64,000 nt of DNA from Phenylobacterium sp. Its GTDB lineage: Bacteria; Pseudomonadota; Alphaproteobacteria; Caulobacterales; Caulobacteraceae. Position numbers and translations under genes: made by a program. The notes beneath the pieces are model-generated. The model did not search any database and was not told the origin of the DNA. It was given only the letters and a program-made list of their open reading frames with translations. Below, piece after piece: positions 3,672-47,196 of this stretch; within the stretch, counting starts at the first letter, position 1; the number at the start of each line of letters is the position of its first letter. The DNA lies in NCBI GenBank assembly GCA_018001015.1, contig JAGNIV010000005.1, positions 1 to 64,000 of the forward strand, read 5' to 3'.

Positions 3672-5456
3672 ATGACTCATCAACAGGCGCTGGCCTTCGG
3701 TCTGATCGGCGTGACCATCGGCGCCTTCGTCTGGGGACGCTTCCGGTATGACCTGATCGCGCTGGTCTCACTGCTGGCGGGCGTGCTGCTGGGGGTGGTG
3801 CCGGCCAGGAACGCCTTTGACGGCTTTTCCAACGACATCACGGTGATCATCGCCAGCGCCCTGGTGGTCAGCGCCGCCTTCGCGCGGTCGGGGATCATCG
3901 AGGCGATGTTGCGGCCGCTGCTGCCGCATCTGAAGACCGAGCGCAGCCAGGTCCCGGTGCTGACCGCCGCCGTCACTCTGCTGTCGACCGCCACCAAGAA
4001 TGTCGGCGCCCTGGCCATCATGATGCCCGTGGCGTTGCAGGTGGCGCGTCGCACCGGGACATCCCCAGGCCGCCTGCTGATGCCGATGTCCTTCGGGGCC
4101 CTGCTCGGGGGGTTGGTCACCCTGGTGGGGACCGCGCCCAACATCATCGTCTCCCAGGTGCGCGAGGACATCCTGGGCAAGCCCTTCGGCATGTACGACT
4201 ACGCCCCCGTGGGTCTTGGCCTCGCGGCGTTGGGGGTGCTGTTCCTCTCCTTCGCCTACCGAATGCTCCCCAAGGGCCGCACGCCGGCCACGAACATCGA
4301 CGCGGCCCTGGCGGCCAACGCGTATTTCACCGAGGTGAAGGTTCCCGACGGCTGGACCTTCGAGAAGAACAGGGTCGCCGACTTCAACCACATGGCGCAC
4401 AACGAGGTGCGGGTGATGGCTCTGCTGCGGAGCGGCAAGCGCAAGTCCCAGCCTCACCCCAACACCAAGATCCTGCCCGGCGACACCCTGCTGTTGGAGG
4501 GCGAACCCCACGGCCTGGATGACCTGATCACCCGAGCCCGCCTCCGGCTGACCCGGGCCGACAAGCCGCTCTCCATGGAGGAACCCACCGAGGAGGTGCG
4601 GGTGGTGGAGGCCGTGGTGGGGGCGGAGTCGGGCCTGATAGGCGAAACCGCCCAGCATGCGGATCTGCACGGCCAGCATGGGGTGAACCTCCTGGCGGTC
4701 AGCCGCTCGGGTTTCCGGCTCAGCCAGCACCTCAACCGCGTCCGCCTGCGGGCCGGGGACGTCATCGTGCTGCAGGGCGGCGAGCGCAGCCTGCCCGGCG
4801 CGCTCAAGGCGCTGGGCCTGCTGCCCCTGGCCGAGCGGGAGGTTCGCCTGGGCGGCATCCGCCACGCCGTTGCGCCGGCCGTGATCCTCGCGGCGGCGAT
4901 GATCCTGGTCGCCTTCCAGGTGATCCCGGTGGCCATCGCCTTCTTCGGCGCCGCGGTGGTGATGATCGCCCTCGGCTCCATCCGCATGCGCGAGGCCTAT
5001 GCCGCCCTAGATGGTCCGGTCCTGGTGCTGATCGCCGCTCTGATACCGGTGTCTCAGGCGATCCAGACCACGGGCGGGGCGGACCTCATCGGTGGCTGGC
5101 TGTCGGCGATGTTCCAGGGCCAGGCGCCGATGCTGGCCCTGGCCGCGATCATGGCCGTGGCCATGGCCGCCACGCCATTCCTGAATAACGCCGCCACAGT
5201 GCTGATCGTGGCGCCGGTGGGGGCGGCCCTGGCCCTCAAGCTGGGGCTCAATCCTGACCCGTTCCTGATGGCCGTCGCGGTGGGCGCGGCCTGCGACTTC
5301 CTCACCCCCATCGGCCATCAGTGCAATACCCTGGTGATGGGGCCGGGCGGCTACAGGTTCAGCGACTATCCCCGGCTGGGGACGCCGCTGACCCTGCTGG
5401 TCCTGGTGGTGGGGACGCCGCTGATCACGCTGTTCTGGCCCCTGGTCCGCGGCTAG
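3672..5456 (+). CDS. SLC13/DASS-family permease with two internal TrkA-C domains
   Basis: A 594-residue membrane protein of the sodium:anion (sulfate/dicarboxylate) symporter type. Hydrophobic segments fill residues 1-200 and 395-590. Between them lie two soluble RCK_C/TrkA-C-like domains (ends ILPGDTLLLEGEPHGL and LRAGDVIVLQGGERSL), an architecture typical of bacterial SLC13 permeases often annotated as sulfate or citrate transporters. The substrate cannot be read from sequence. The ATG was chosen over an in-frame TTG 18 bp upstream because GGGGGAA sits about 5 bp before it. It follows putA by 40 bp on the same strand. Its TAG overlaps the stop of the convergent GDT1 gene in a shared CTAG. 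Confidence 0.85.
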   Translation: MTHQQALAFGLIGVTIGAFVWGRFRYDLIALVSLLAGVLLGVVPARNAFDGFSNDITVIIASALVVSAAFARSGIIEAMLRPLLPHLKTERSQVPVLTAAVTLLSTATKNVGALAIMMPVALQVARRTGTSPGRLLMPMSFGALLGGLVTLVGTAPNIIVSQVREDILGKPFGMYDYAPVGLGLAALGVLFLSFAYRMLPKGRTPATNIDAALAANAYFTEVKVPDGWTFEKNRVADFNHMAHNEVRVMALLRSGKRKSQPHPNTKILPGDTLLLEGEPHGLDDLITRARLRLTRADKPLSMEEPTEEVRVVEAVVGAESGLIGETAQHADLHGQHGVNLLAVSRSGFRLSQHLNRVRLRAGDVIVLQGGERSLPGALKALGLLPLAEREVRLGGIRHAVAPAVILAAAMILVAFQVIPVAIAFFGAAVVMIALGSIRMREAYAALDGPVLVLIAALIPVSQAIQTTGGADLIGGWLSAMFQGQAPMLALAAIMAVAMAATPFLNNAATVLIVAPVGAALALKLGLNPDPFLMAVAVGAACDFLTPIGHQCNTLVMGPGGYRFSDYPRLGTPLTLLVLVVGTPLITLFWPLVRG

Positions 5457-6016
5457 CCCCAGATGAGAATCCACAGGCCGATGGCGGCGAAGGAGATCGC
5501 CGCTGCGATGCGGATCGCCTTCAGCGGCAGCCGCGTGGCCGCGACCTCGCCCAGGAACACCGCCGGCGTATTGGCCAGCATCATGCCCGCCGTCGTGCCC
5601 GCCGCCACCAGGGCCACCTCGTGGAACCGCGCGCCCAGCGCCACGGTGGCGACCTGGGTCTTGTCGCCCATCTCCACGAAGAAGAACGCCACCACCGTGG
5701 TCCAGAAGATCGAAGCGCCGGCCCGGTCGCGCGGCGCGTCCTTGTCTTCGAAGGTGTCGGGAATCAGCGCCCAGGCGGCGAAGGCGAGGAAGGCCAGGCC
5801 CAGCACCCACTTCATCCAGGGACCGTCGAAGAAGGTCCCCGCCACCGAGCCGACGGCGGCGGCCAAGGCGTGGTTGGCGATGGTGGCCACGAAGATCCCA
5901 AGCAGGATGGGGACGGGCTTGCGGAACCGCGCGGCCAGCAGGATGGCCAGCAGCTGGGTCTTGTCACCGATTTCGGCGATGGCCACGAGGCCGGTGGAGA
6001 CGAGGAAGGCTTCCAT
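5453..6016 (-). CDS. GDT1/UPF0016 family transporter (probable Mn2+ exporter)
   Basis: A 187-residue integral membrane protein with two copies of the family signature E-x-G-D-K-T-Q (EIGDKTQLLAILLAARF near residue 15; EMGDKTQVATVALGARF in the second half), each followed by hydrophobic helices. UPF0016/TMEM165 proteins (MneA in Vibrio and Xanthomonas) export Mn2+. The start MEAFLVSTG was chosen because the longer open frame upstream runs through a conserved riboswitch that must be untranslated. The riboswitch, which senses Mn2+ in other bacteria, independently supports a role in manganese efflux. The gene is convergent with the SLC13 permease. Confidence 0.93.
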   Translation of the reverse strand: MEAFLVSTGLVAIAEIGDKTQLLAILLAARFRKPVPILLGIFVATIANHALAAAVGSVAGTFFDGPWMKWVLGLAFLAFAAWALIPDTFEDKDAPRDRAGASIFWTTVVAFFFVEMGDKTQVATVALGARFHEVALVAAGTTAGMMLANTPAVFLGEVAATRLPLKAIRIAAAISFAAIGLWILIWG

Positions 6017-6091
6017 TGAGACAGACGTCCTGGGCGGGGTCGGGCACAACCAATGGCTTTCCGCGCCGCCGACCCCGCAAAAGGACAGCGC

Positions 6092-6212
6092 ACGAAAGCC
6101 AAAGGTCTCGCCAAGCTCAATCGCCGGACGCGCCATGCTCGGGGCGGGAAAACCCTCTGCAAGTCTGTTGACGCGTCCCCTGCTGGAACCGCAGGCGGCT
6201 ACTCCCCAGTGA
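6092..6212 (-). ncRNA. yybP-ykoY riboswitch (Mn2+ sensing) upstream of the GDT1 gene
   Basis: Read on the minus strand, the leader carries the hallmark 5' element GGGGAGUAGCC (6197-6207), an internal GCGUCAACAGACUUG-like segment, and the 3' element GGCGAGACCUUUGGC (6098-6112). These are the conserved parts of the yybP-ykoY class, which binds Mn2+. Between this aptamer and the start codon is a second hairpin with a perfect 10-bp stem, GCGGGGTCGG / CCGACCCCGC (6034-6043 with 6069-6078). Its 3' arm ends close to a candidate AGGA ribosome-binding site. There is no U-run, so control is probably translational. The aptamer ends are approximate. Confidence 0.9.
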
Positions 6213-6354
6213 CGGCGTGGGGATAGGTCGCAGGGCGTCCGGGCGCAAGTCGAAAACCGCCCGCGCGGCGGGCGAGGTCATTTGTCACACTGTCGTGAGC
6301 AATCGTCCCCAGGCGCCTCGGAAAGCCTTGCTCATCAATCGCCGGAGGGCGACG

Positions 6355-37830: not shown

Positions 37831-38916
37831 CTAAGCCATCGCCCCTTCCTTCACCCCTTGCGCCGTCACCGCCCGCCGCGCCCGGACGCCGTCGGCCAGG
37901 CGCTCCAGCACCGCCACCGAGCTGTCCCAGTCGATGCAGCCGTCGGTGATGCTCTGGCCGTAGACCAAGGGTTGGCCCGCCACGAGATCCTGGCGACCGG
38001 CCTCGATGTGGCTCTCCACCATCACGCCGACGATGCGCCGTTCGCCCACGCTAAGTTGCCGGGCGACGTCGTCCATCACCTTGGGCTGGTTGGCCGGGTC
38101 CTTGGACGAGTTGGCGTGGCTGGCGTCGATCATCAGGGCGGGACGCAGACCCGATTTCTCGATCACGGCGCAGGCCGCCGCCACGCTGGCCGCGTCATAG
38201 TTGGTCGTCGTCCCGCCCCGCAGCACCACATGGCAGTCCTCATTGCCGGTGGTGGCGGCGATCGACGAGCGGCCGTCCTTGCTCACCGCCAGGAAATGAT
38301 GCGGCTGGCTGGCGGCCTTGCAGGCGTCGACGGCGATCTTCACGTCGCCGCCGGTGCCGTTCTTGAACCCCAACGGGCAGGAGAGTCCCGAGGCCATCTC
38401 GCGGTGGATCTGGCTCTCGGTGGTCCGCGCCCCGATCGCCCCCCAGCCCACCAGGTCGGCCAGGTACTGGGGCGTGATCACATCCAGGAACTCCACCGCC
38501 GCCGGCAGCCCCATGTCGTTGATGTCCAGCAGCAGGCCGCGGGCCAGGCGCAGGCCCTCGTTGATGGCGAAGGTGCCGTCCAGATAGGGATCGTTGATCA
38601 AGCCCTTCCACCCGACCGTGGTCCGGGGCTTTTCGAAATAGACGCGCATCAGGATTTCCAGCTCGCCGCCGAACCGCTGGCGCTGCTTCAGCAGCCGGCC
38701 GGCATAGTCCATGGCCGCCTCCGGATCGTGGATCGAGCAGGGGCCGATCACCACGGCCAGCCGGTCGTCCTGGCCGTGCAGGATGCGATGCAGGGCGTGG
38801 CGGGCGGCGGTGACCGTCACGCTGGCGGACGGCGTGCGGGCGAATTCCGCCATCACCCGGGACGGCGGGCTGAGTTCGGTTAGGCTGGTGATGCGAAGGT
38901 CGTCGGTGCTGGACAT
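37831..38916 (-). CDS. aroG: 3-deoxy-7-phosphoheptulonate (DAHP) synthase, class I
   Basis: DAHP synthase catalyses the first step of aromatic amino acid biosynthesis, condensing phosphoenolpyruvate and erythrose 4-phosphate. The 361-residue protein is of the AroF/AroG/AroH (class I-alpha) type: VVIGPCSIHDPEAA, RVYFEKPRTTVGWKGLINDP, GARTTESQIHREMASG, GFKNGTGGD, LRGGTTTNYD, IDASHANSSKDP and GQSITDGCIDW. It is preceded by a 5' leader with a small peptide and an intrinsic terminator (see separate entries), so expression should be set by charged aromatic tRNA levels in addition to any allosteric control. The ATG follows GGAG. Confidence 0.94.
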   Translation of the reverse strand: MSSTDDLRITSLTELSPPSRVMAEFARTPSASVTVTAARHALHRILHGQDDRLAVVIGPCSIHDPEAAMDYAGRLLKQRQRFGGELEILMRVYFEKPRTTVGWKGLINDPYLDGTFAINEGLRLARGLLLDINDMGLPAAVEFLDVITPQYLADLVGWGAIGARTTESQIHREMASGLSCPLGFKNGTGGDVKIAVDACKAASQPHHFLAVSKDGRSSIAATTGNEDCHVVLRGGTTTNYDAASVAAACAVIEKSGLRPALMIDASHANSSKDPANQPKVMDDVARQLSVGERRIVGVMVESHIEAGRQDLVAGQPLVYGQSITDGCIDWDSSVAVLERLADGVRARRAVTAQGVKEGAMA

Positions 38917-38953: not shown

Positions 38954-38979
38954 AAAAAAACCGCCAGGGTGACTGGCGG
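38954..38979 (-). terminator. Attenuator terminator in the DAHP synthase leader
   Basis: On the minus strand CCGCCAG, GTCACC-type loop and CTGGCGG form a 7-bp stem followed by TTTTTTT. It lies 38 bp before the aroG start codon, upstream of the coding region, so it terminates the leader transcript rather than a preceding gene. A second copy of CTGGCGG (39029-39035) lies in the leader reading frame and can pair with the same 5' arm, giving a competing antiterminator. Confidence 0.9.
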
Positions 38980-39005
38980 TGGGTGGGGGCTTGTCTAGGA
39001 CGCTG

Positions 39006-39083
39006 TCACGTCACGCCAAGTCCTTCCTCCGCCAGGGGCGTCGGAAAGCTAAAATACCAGGTGCTGGCGGCGAGGCGGGTCAT
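39006..39083 (-). CDS. Aromatic leader peptide of the DAHP synthase attenuator
   Basis: A 25-residue frame, MTRLAASTWYFSFPTPLAE then EGLGVT, with Trp9, Tyr10, Phe11 and Phe13 clustered. Ends 26 bp before the terminator stem. The antiterminator arm CTGGCGG is about seven codons after the TGG codon, so a ribosome stalled at the aromatic codons leaves it free, whereas one that reads on to the stop would mask it. This is the layout of a transcription attenuator. No strong ribosome-binding site is visible. The peptide itself need not have another function. Confidence 0.85.
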   Translation of the reverse strand: MTRLAASTWYFSFPTPLAEEGLGVT

Positions 39084-39125
39084 GACGGTAAAGCCGATAC
39101 ACCAGGACGAAATCGGAGTCATCCC

Positions 39126-47060: not shown

Positions 47061-47160
47061 GGTGGAGATCGGCGACGGGCGGACGCCTCGCCAACCCGGT
47101 CAGGTCCGGAAGGAAGCAGCCGCAACGAGTTTCGCTCCGGGTCGTCGTTCGGTCTCCACC
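47061..47160 (+). ncRNA. ffs: Signal recognition particle RNA (small bacterial 4.5S type)
   Basis: The sequence contains the conserved SRP domain IV: GTCAGGTCCGGAAGGAAGCAG (47099-47119) with the GGAA tetraloop and the asymmetric internal loops. Terminal strands GGTGGAGA and TCTCCACC pair to close a rod of 100 nt. The RNA binds Ffh to target membrane proteins co-translationally. It lies directly upstream of dnaX, a common place for ffs. Confidence 0.96.
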
Positions 47161-47196
47161 CAATCTAGCTTTGAAAGCGCCAACGGCGCGGGGCGC

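Follow-up and report, generated by a model that had tools for sequence, protein, structure and literature searches.

Ribosome-mediated attenuation is a textbook mechanism of gene control, and multivalent attenuators such as the thr and ilvGMEDA leaders hold, in a single leader, codons for more than one end product. Those leaders serve other pathways; the end products of concern here are the aromatic amino acids, whose synthesis is entered at DAHP synthase. For the aromatic regulons of Proteobacteria, the available part of one account names attenuation for trp and pheA and describes TyrR and TrpR control for gamma-proteobacterial lineages (PMC5343134). A DAHP synthase attenuator is described for C. 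glutamicum, where the aroR-aroF leader has Phe-Tyr-Phe codons and responds to Phe, according to the accessible parts of two reports (PMC11802643, PMC4046766). In S. meliloti, the trpL leader (rnTrpL/peTrpL) is made as an RNA starting at its own ATG and forms a terminator or an antiterminator in a ribosome-dependent manner, as described in the accessible part of the source (PMC7298713).

Within a 64,000-nucleotide stretch of Phenylobacterium DNA (henceforth the window), we found a leader that, judged from its sequence, is very probably a ribosome-mediated transcription attenuator standing before a class I DAHP synthase gene. It resembles aroR-aroF in placing an aromatic-codon leader peptide before a DAHP synthase, a system in which, from the sections seen, ribosome stalling raises transcription. 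By contrast, aroR-aroF is actinobacterial, responds to Phe and is described in those sections with no mention of a Trp codon, such that the likeness is one of function by description. The window leader shares with S. meliloti trpL an alpha-proteobacterial setting, a terminator/antiterminator pair and an RNA start at the ATG, the last being putative here, whereas trpL has Trp codons and precedes trpE(G) in the portion of the source at hand (PMC7298713). The Phe_leader family (RF01859) also combines a Phe-rich leader peptide, a terminator and alternative pairing, but it controls pheA or pheS. At its gathering cut-off, RF01859 matched none of 10 DAHP synthase loci and both control loci (pheA and pheS). 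No Rfam 15 family matched the leader at its gathering cut-off, and none matched in four loci at E 0.1. The Trp leader and the T-box are among these Rfam 15 families. The best weak match at relaxed thresholds, sroD (22.4 bits), was set aside, as the alignment showed a terminator of similar make-up; gathering and relaxed thresholds thus yielded no aromatic leader family for the window. The literature searched held no DAHP synthase attenuator in Proteobacteria, with Vitreschak et al. 2004 and Panina et al. 2001 outside that search. A prior description is possible, and what appears new from the sequences is the breadth of the arrangement, its Phe/Tyr/Trp codon set with variable Trp, and its absence from Rfam.

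The leader is encoded on the minus strand (Table 1). A sequence-only reading of this DNA had proposed a 25-residue peptide with Trp-Tyr-Phe-Ser-Phe at residues 9-13, and rereading 39083-39006 bore this out. Both copies of CTGGCGG that it had named, one in the peptide frame (39035-39029) and one in the 3' arm of a terminator (38967-38961) ahead of seven T (38960-38954), were recovered as well. It had also called the complementary CCGCCAG single, which is wrong: a second copy lies at 39070-39064, in codons 5-7. An intrinsic terminator is present between the leader ORF and the DAHP synthase gene, and a terminator scan gives it a stem of 8 pairs (38980-38960) running into seven T. Upstream of the leader lies a divergent APH-family gene, and the terminator therefore ends no upstream gene on the leader's strand. 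The combination of an aromatic cluster (four of five residues), a soon-stopping frame and a strict T5 hairpin is found at a single place in the window, this leader, and was absent from 20 Markov-1 windows.

Table 1. Coordinates of the leader, its predicted pairing strands and the gene downstream.
Feature	Position	Strand	Evidence or remarks
Putative -35-like hexamer ATGACT	39117..39122	-	17 nt before -10; GTGACA/ATGACA-like there in many alpha-proteobacterial homologues
Putative -10-like hexamer TATCGG	39094..39099	-	10 nt before leader ATG; weak by itself
Leader peptide ORF	39006..39083	-	25 residues + stop; reads MTRLAASTWYFSFPTPLAEEGLGVT*
Extra CCGCCAG, codons 5-7	39064..39070	-	could pair with strand 2; few other leaders have one (alignment, by eye)
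Control codons TGG TAT TTT AGC TTT (Trp Tyr Phe Ser Phe)	39045..39059	-	sequence, folding
1:2 hairpin (predicted): CTTTCC 39048-39043 (control-codon side) against GGAAGG 39027-39022, strand 2 inside	39022..39048	-	folding
Strand 2, CTGGCGG, in peptide frame	39029..39035	-	alignment, sequence
Strand 3, ACCGCCAG, including CCGCCAG 38979-38973	38973..38980	-	partner of strand 2 (antiterminator) or strand 4 (terminator)
Strand 4, CTGGCGGT, terminator 3' arm, including CTGGCGG 38967-38961	38960..38967	-	terminator scan, alignment
T7 tract of terminator	38954..38960	-	terminator scan, sequence
Class I DAHP synthase, 361 aa, gene under predicted control	37831..38916	-	PF00793, E 5.6e-92

If the leader is an attenuator of this gene, related genes should be preceded by similar leaders. 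We assembled 116 regions upstream of class I DAHP synthase genes from relatives, the enzyme family (30 loci) and named genome contigs, some of them near-copies. The named contigs were limited to the best 80 out of at least 581 relatives and the family to 30 loci, which biases the set towards close kin of the window's enzyme. Left out beforehand were L002 (at a contig end, terminator visible), L015 (truncated) and L016 (a spurious match). Of these 116 close-kin genes, 111 are preceded by an aromatic leader ORF and then a G/C-T tract, defined as G/C letters before T4 or more, with no hairpin required. Among the five regions not counted, the beta-proteobacterial L072 and L084 have no leader by reading, another frame ending there; L100 sits at the edge of its contig, the sequence of L112 is masked, and in L106 the peptide is present but the T-tract pattern fails. 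The leaders come from alpha-, beta- and gamma-proteobacteria, with named carriers including Xanthomonas, Stenotrophomonas, Rhodanobacter, Bordetella, Achromobacter, Massilia, Duganella, Devosia, Kaistia, Inquilinus and Bradyrhizobium. The arrangement had been proposed for Caulobacterales, a scope that proved too narrow, as it is also found in beta-, gamma- and other alpha-proteobacteria.

From the 111 leaders we kept a non-redundant set of 63 (less than 88% identical) and built from it a covariance model (R1), which could become an RNA family. In the window's own genome, R1 gave a single full match, the window leader, at 99.3 bits, with the next match at 20.3. Among 387 genomes of the class, the 18 that encode the enzyme (E 1e-60 or better) are the same 18 that have a full-length leader match (34 bits or more); both counts refer to one draw of genomes, as judged by their labels, and the leader scan used stricter filters. 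In 17 of the 18 the leader lies directly before the gene, by coordinates or by downstream reading, and the last (G442) is at a contig edge. Across 397 genomes of the phylum, R1 matched 70 times at E 1e-6: 55 matches lie before DAHP synthase (53 by coordinates, 2 by Pfam), 4 before pheA, 8 before pheS (by Pfam) and 3 before neither, two of these being partial. The model thus picks up the known Phe attenuators of pheA and pheS, at 34.9-44.0 bits. As 220 of the 397 genomes have a class I DAHP synthase at 1e-60 or better, many relatives of the enzyme must either be without the leader or have one below threshold. Two genomes of about 2 Mb, G977 and G890, encode strong class I DAHP synthases (549 and 543 bits) and gave no leader match at E 1e-6, possibly reflecting leader loss in small genomes.

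We then asked what is conserved within the leader. Throughout the 63 sequences, GGCGG in strand 2, CCGCC in strand 3 and GGCGG in strand 4 are nearly invariant. In the terminator (3:4), 96.0% of cells are paired versus 91.5 in shuffles, and 23 cells are changed on both sides versus 4.9, a figure as high in 0/500 shuffles, which do not preserve the relatedness among leaders. The closing G-C is replaced by A-U in 15 sequences, and two loop-adjacent pairs are also double-changed; the number of double-changed pairs (3) was reached by 120/500 shuffles. In the antiterminator (2:3), 82.7% of cells are paired versus 80.8 in shuffles, a small excess because there is hardly any variation in the core; 41/63 leaders leave the outermost pair open. 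Changes on both sides nonetheless occur there at four pairs (as high in 1/500 shuffles) and in 15 cells (0/500). Two cases illustrate how the strands vary. In L105 (Bradyrhizobium sp. LHD-71), strand 2 reads CTGGCAG and strand 3 CTGCCAG, such that 2:3 is perfect and 3:4 contains a G-U; all ten Oxalobacteraceae read GGCGGT / ACCGCC / GGCGGT, one change carried across all three strands. For the 1:2 hairpin, 86.8% of cells are paired versus 84.3 in shuffles, with four double-changed pairs (as high in 15/500 shuffles), and the GGC of strand 2 is paired upstream in 46/63 predicted folds. RNAalifold run on the 63 leaders returned six terminator pairs and nothing else, as expected of a method that returns one structure.

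A further argument comes from nine of the 111 leaders (L008-L012, L025, L028, L029 and L075, one Phenylobacterium group), which carry an extra T after the aromatic codons. This T shifts the frame of the peptide tail and leaves the letters of strand 2 almost unchanged, indicating that RNA pairing, and not the peptide tail, is conserved. We also considered an internal pause site of the Shine-Dalgarno kind (GGAGGAAGG, downstream of strand 2), and a similar motif is present in 49/63 leaders; we do not claim it, since its anti-SD pairing is barely above that of same-letter shuffles (-8.8 versus -8.5).

To see how a ribosome on the leader could bear on these pairings, we folded each RNA covered to 12 nt past the A-site codon, with strand 4 absent and strand 3 taken from the alignment. 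In these occlusion folds, 2:3 forms upon a stall at 44/45 Trp codons, 130/140 Tyr codons and 187/192 Phe codons, and 62/63 leaders have at least one aromatic codon whose stall frees the antiterminator, the exception being L032, which has none. With the ribosome at the stop codon, the antiterminator is absent in 63/63 when 12 nt are covered and in 61/63 when 15 nt are covered, one of the 62 leaders assessed at that width forming it. In the window leader, stalls at Trp9, Tyr10 or Phe11 give the same antiterminator of -27.9 kcal/mol, a stall at Phe13 gives a weaker one (-20.2 kcal/mol), and a ribosome at the stop codon gives none. The equal antiterminator at the three codons implies that the geometry of the leader lets each of three amino acids work the switch. 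When the whole RNA is folded with a ribosome at the middle aromatic codon, the lowest-energy fold keeps the terminator in 52/63, the window included. Because the terminator usually prevails as soon as strand 4 has been made, the decision must be kinetic, with the antiterminator forming first and persisting. Without a ribosome, RNA up to strand 3 forms 2:3 in 36/63, so shut-off should need translation of the leader. The pairing counts, together with these folds (strand 4 absent), support the earlier proposal that terminator and antiterminator exclude each other through strand 3, and the same counts and folds indicate that the alternative pairing is kept in the 63 homologous leaders.

From the anatomy of the leader, its conservation and the predicted folds, we propose the following sequence of events. 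When charged tRNA-Trp, -Tyr or -Phe is scarce, the ribosome would stall at codons 9-11 (less well at 13) and leave strand 2 uncovered. Once free, strand 2 (CTGGCGG) would pair with CCGCCAG of strand 3 while strand 4 has yet to be made; the terminator would then come too late and the DAHP synthase gene would be transcribed. When all three are plentiful, the ribosome would proceed and cover strand 2, or the 1:2 hairpin would capture it; with strand 2 occupied, 3:4 would pair and transcription would end at the T7 tract. The switch thus probably turns the DAHP synthase gene on at aromatic amino acid shortage. Leader-peptide attenuation of DAHP synthase, as first suggested for this locus, is supported by the anatomy, the conservation, the compensatory changes and the predicted occlusion folds; stalling and termination themselves are predicted from the same features.

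A major question for such a switch is which amino acids it senses. Phe and Tyr codons are present in all leaders tallied (63/63 non-redundant, 17/17 in the class sample and 28/28 in the phylum sample). Exactly one Trp codon is found in the control cluster of each of 17 Caulobacteraceae, 13 other alpha-proteobacterial and 9 gamma-proteobacterial leaders, while Trp is present in 4/10 Oxalobacteraceae and 0/10 Alcaligenaceae; adding the other four leaders brings the count to 45/63. Homologous leaders thus keep the aromatic codons as a group. In the class sample, 9 of the 17 alpha-proteobacterial leaders besides the window's have Trp in the control cluster and 8 do not (L129, L130, L133, L135, L137, L139, L142 and L143), which compares with 30/30 alpha-proteobacterial leaders in the close-kin set. 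Trp is also present in 26 of the 28 best leaders of the phylum sample. By its codons, then, Trp is a frequent but lineage-bound input, missing from some alpha-proteobacterial leaders too. The sequence-only reading had pointed to one switch for Trp, Tyr and Phe, a possibility that fits the codons and the geometry of the window leader; many homologues have no Trp codon. Which amino acids are sensed is likely to follow from these codons. Leaders with and without Trp behind the same RNA switch also make a natural series on which to learn which control codon counts. One of the class-sample leaders, L142 (G518), has an R1 match of 52.5 bits and only one Phe and one Tyr codon, and is perhaps decaying or retuned. 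Codon choice within the clusters is skewed as well: 158 Phe codons are TTT and 34 are TTC, compared with 49 TTT and 336 TTC in the DAHP synthase genes that these leaders precede, a preference that could possibly come from slow decoding or from an unpaired T-rich stall site.

For the leader to work as proposed, its RNA would have to start upstream of the ORF. Within the 45 nt that precede the leader ATG, and hence upstream of the ORF, the highest-scoring promoter-like pair consists of the hexamers ATGACT and TATCGG, 17 nt apart; a strict promoter scan at the window locus found no promoter. Over 110 of the 111 upstream stretches, the mean best score of such pairs is 7.92 versus 5.79 in base shuffles. 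In most alpha-proteobacterial, gamma-proteobacterial and Alcaligenaceae leaders, the end of the predicted -10 lies 6-10 nt upstream of the ATG, and in Oxalobacteraceae a TATAGT-like element is read further upstream. The leader mRNA probably begins only a few bases from its ATG, which would make it near-leaderless. In Caulobacter crescentus, leaderless mRNAs are common (375), according to the part of the source available (PMC4117421).

How widely the window leader senses admits two readings of one attenuator. We put forward tentatively, as close to an even call, that it is an OR gate for shortage of Phe, Tyr or Trp, in which Phe and Tyr are constant inputs and Trp was gained or lost by lineage, that it was inherited with the class I gene since before the alpha-, beta- and gamma-proteobacterial forms parted, and that it does the work that in E. 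coli falls to three isoenzymes under separate control. It is also possible, though we rather doubt it, that the same attenuator in practice senses one or two amino acids, most likely Phe, perhaps with Tyr, the Trp codon being minor. This would agree with the presence of Phe and Tyr codons in every leader, with the absence of Trp from the cluster in 18/63 leaders and 8/17 of the class sample, and with the C. glutamicum aroF leader, whose Phe-Tyr-Phe codons respond to Phe and not to Tyr in the portion of the report available (PMC11802643). Against it stand the single Trp codon kept in all 17 non-redundant Caulobacteraceae leaders, the predicted folds in which a Trp stall frees strand 2 as well as a Phe stall does (44/45 Trp codons), and the place of Trp as first control codon in the window leader.

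The remaining explanations give the leader another role. That the terminated leader (about 130 nt, from near the ATG) or its peptide also acts in trans, like S. meliloti rnTrpL/peTrpL, is unlikely; the predicted -10 at 6-10 nt before the ATG would indeed give a (near) leaderless small mRNA like rnTrpL, as far as the available part of its description goes (PMC7298713), but in the nine frame-shifted leaders the tail of the peptide is not kept as protein. We consider it very improbable that the hairpin is a plain insulating terminator with a meaningless open frame in front. Similar terminators are common, as judged by the many partial R1 matches below 33 bits in the class sample, and one full-length match of 36.6 bits (L266) is unrelated; yet 111/116 DAHP synthase upstream regions, from three classes, share the aromatic ORF and strand 2, and with the upstream gene divergent there is no gene on this strand to end. 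Equally hard to credit is direct sensing of an aromatic compound by the leader, as a riboswitch or through a bound protein; the existence of a conserved 5' leader speaks for it and nothing beyond, no Rfam family matches the leader, and what is conserved in it are the codons and the pairing strands. Ribosome-mediated attenuation offers a ready answer as to how one class I DAHP synthase may be controlled across a range of alpha-, beta- and gamma-proteobacteria.

We wished to know how the attenuated gene relates to other DAHP synthases. The same genome encodes a class II DAHP synthase on another contig (G000:C6:5908-7224, L190), with no such leader and no T6 tract upstream. A class II enzyme is present in 55/60 genomes of the relatives sample, the window's included, and the class I enzyme in 14/35 other genomes of the same genus, one of these genes being truncated by the end of its contig; a spurious match was left uncounted. 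No such leader was found at 30 class II loci; five aromatic frames in front of class II loci were rejected, as they look like the tails of one upstream gene and have no T6 tract. With a class II gene elsewhere and without the leader, the attenuated class I gene looks like a second, regulated entry into the pathway.

The distribution of the leader also bears on its age. In a tree of 116 DAHP synthase proteins made by a quick method, the beta-proteobacterial sequences form one clade (support 98) and the alpha-proteobacterial ones lie on one side (84); the gamma-proteobacterial ones need a single change, with support 0, and the root is a drawing root only. As the same leader with the same three strands is found in alpha-, beta- and gamma-proteobacteria, the simplest account is that the union of leader and gene predates the split of the gene forms. 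We set aside recent horizontal spread of the unit, because with the beta-proteobacteria together and the alpha-proteobacteria on one side inheritance with the class is simpler; an old transfer may have occurred. The same tree bears on the genus of the window, as the enzymes of two same-genus genomes are identical there to those of named Phenylobacterium records (L018 with L040, L029 with L075), which points to Phenylobacterium. It also places the DAHP synthase of L041 with Inquilinus (99 and 96), although the title of its contig is Mycobacterium sp. KBS0706; the gene has a similar leader, and the record is probably misnamed or holds foreign sequence.

Two other RNAs were recognized in the window. 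A bacterial small SRP RNA (RF00169, 61.2 bits) lies at 47063-47161 on the plus strand. A yybP-ykoY manganese riboswitch (RF00080, 59.3 bits) at 6034-6219 on the minus strand overlaps the start of the minus-strand frame 5453-6136, which matches GDT1, a divalent cation/proton antiporter family (PF01169).
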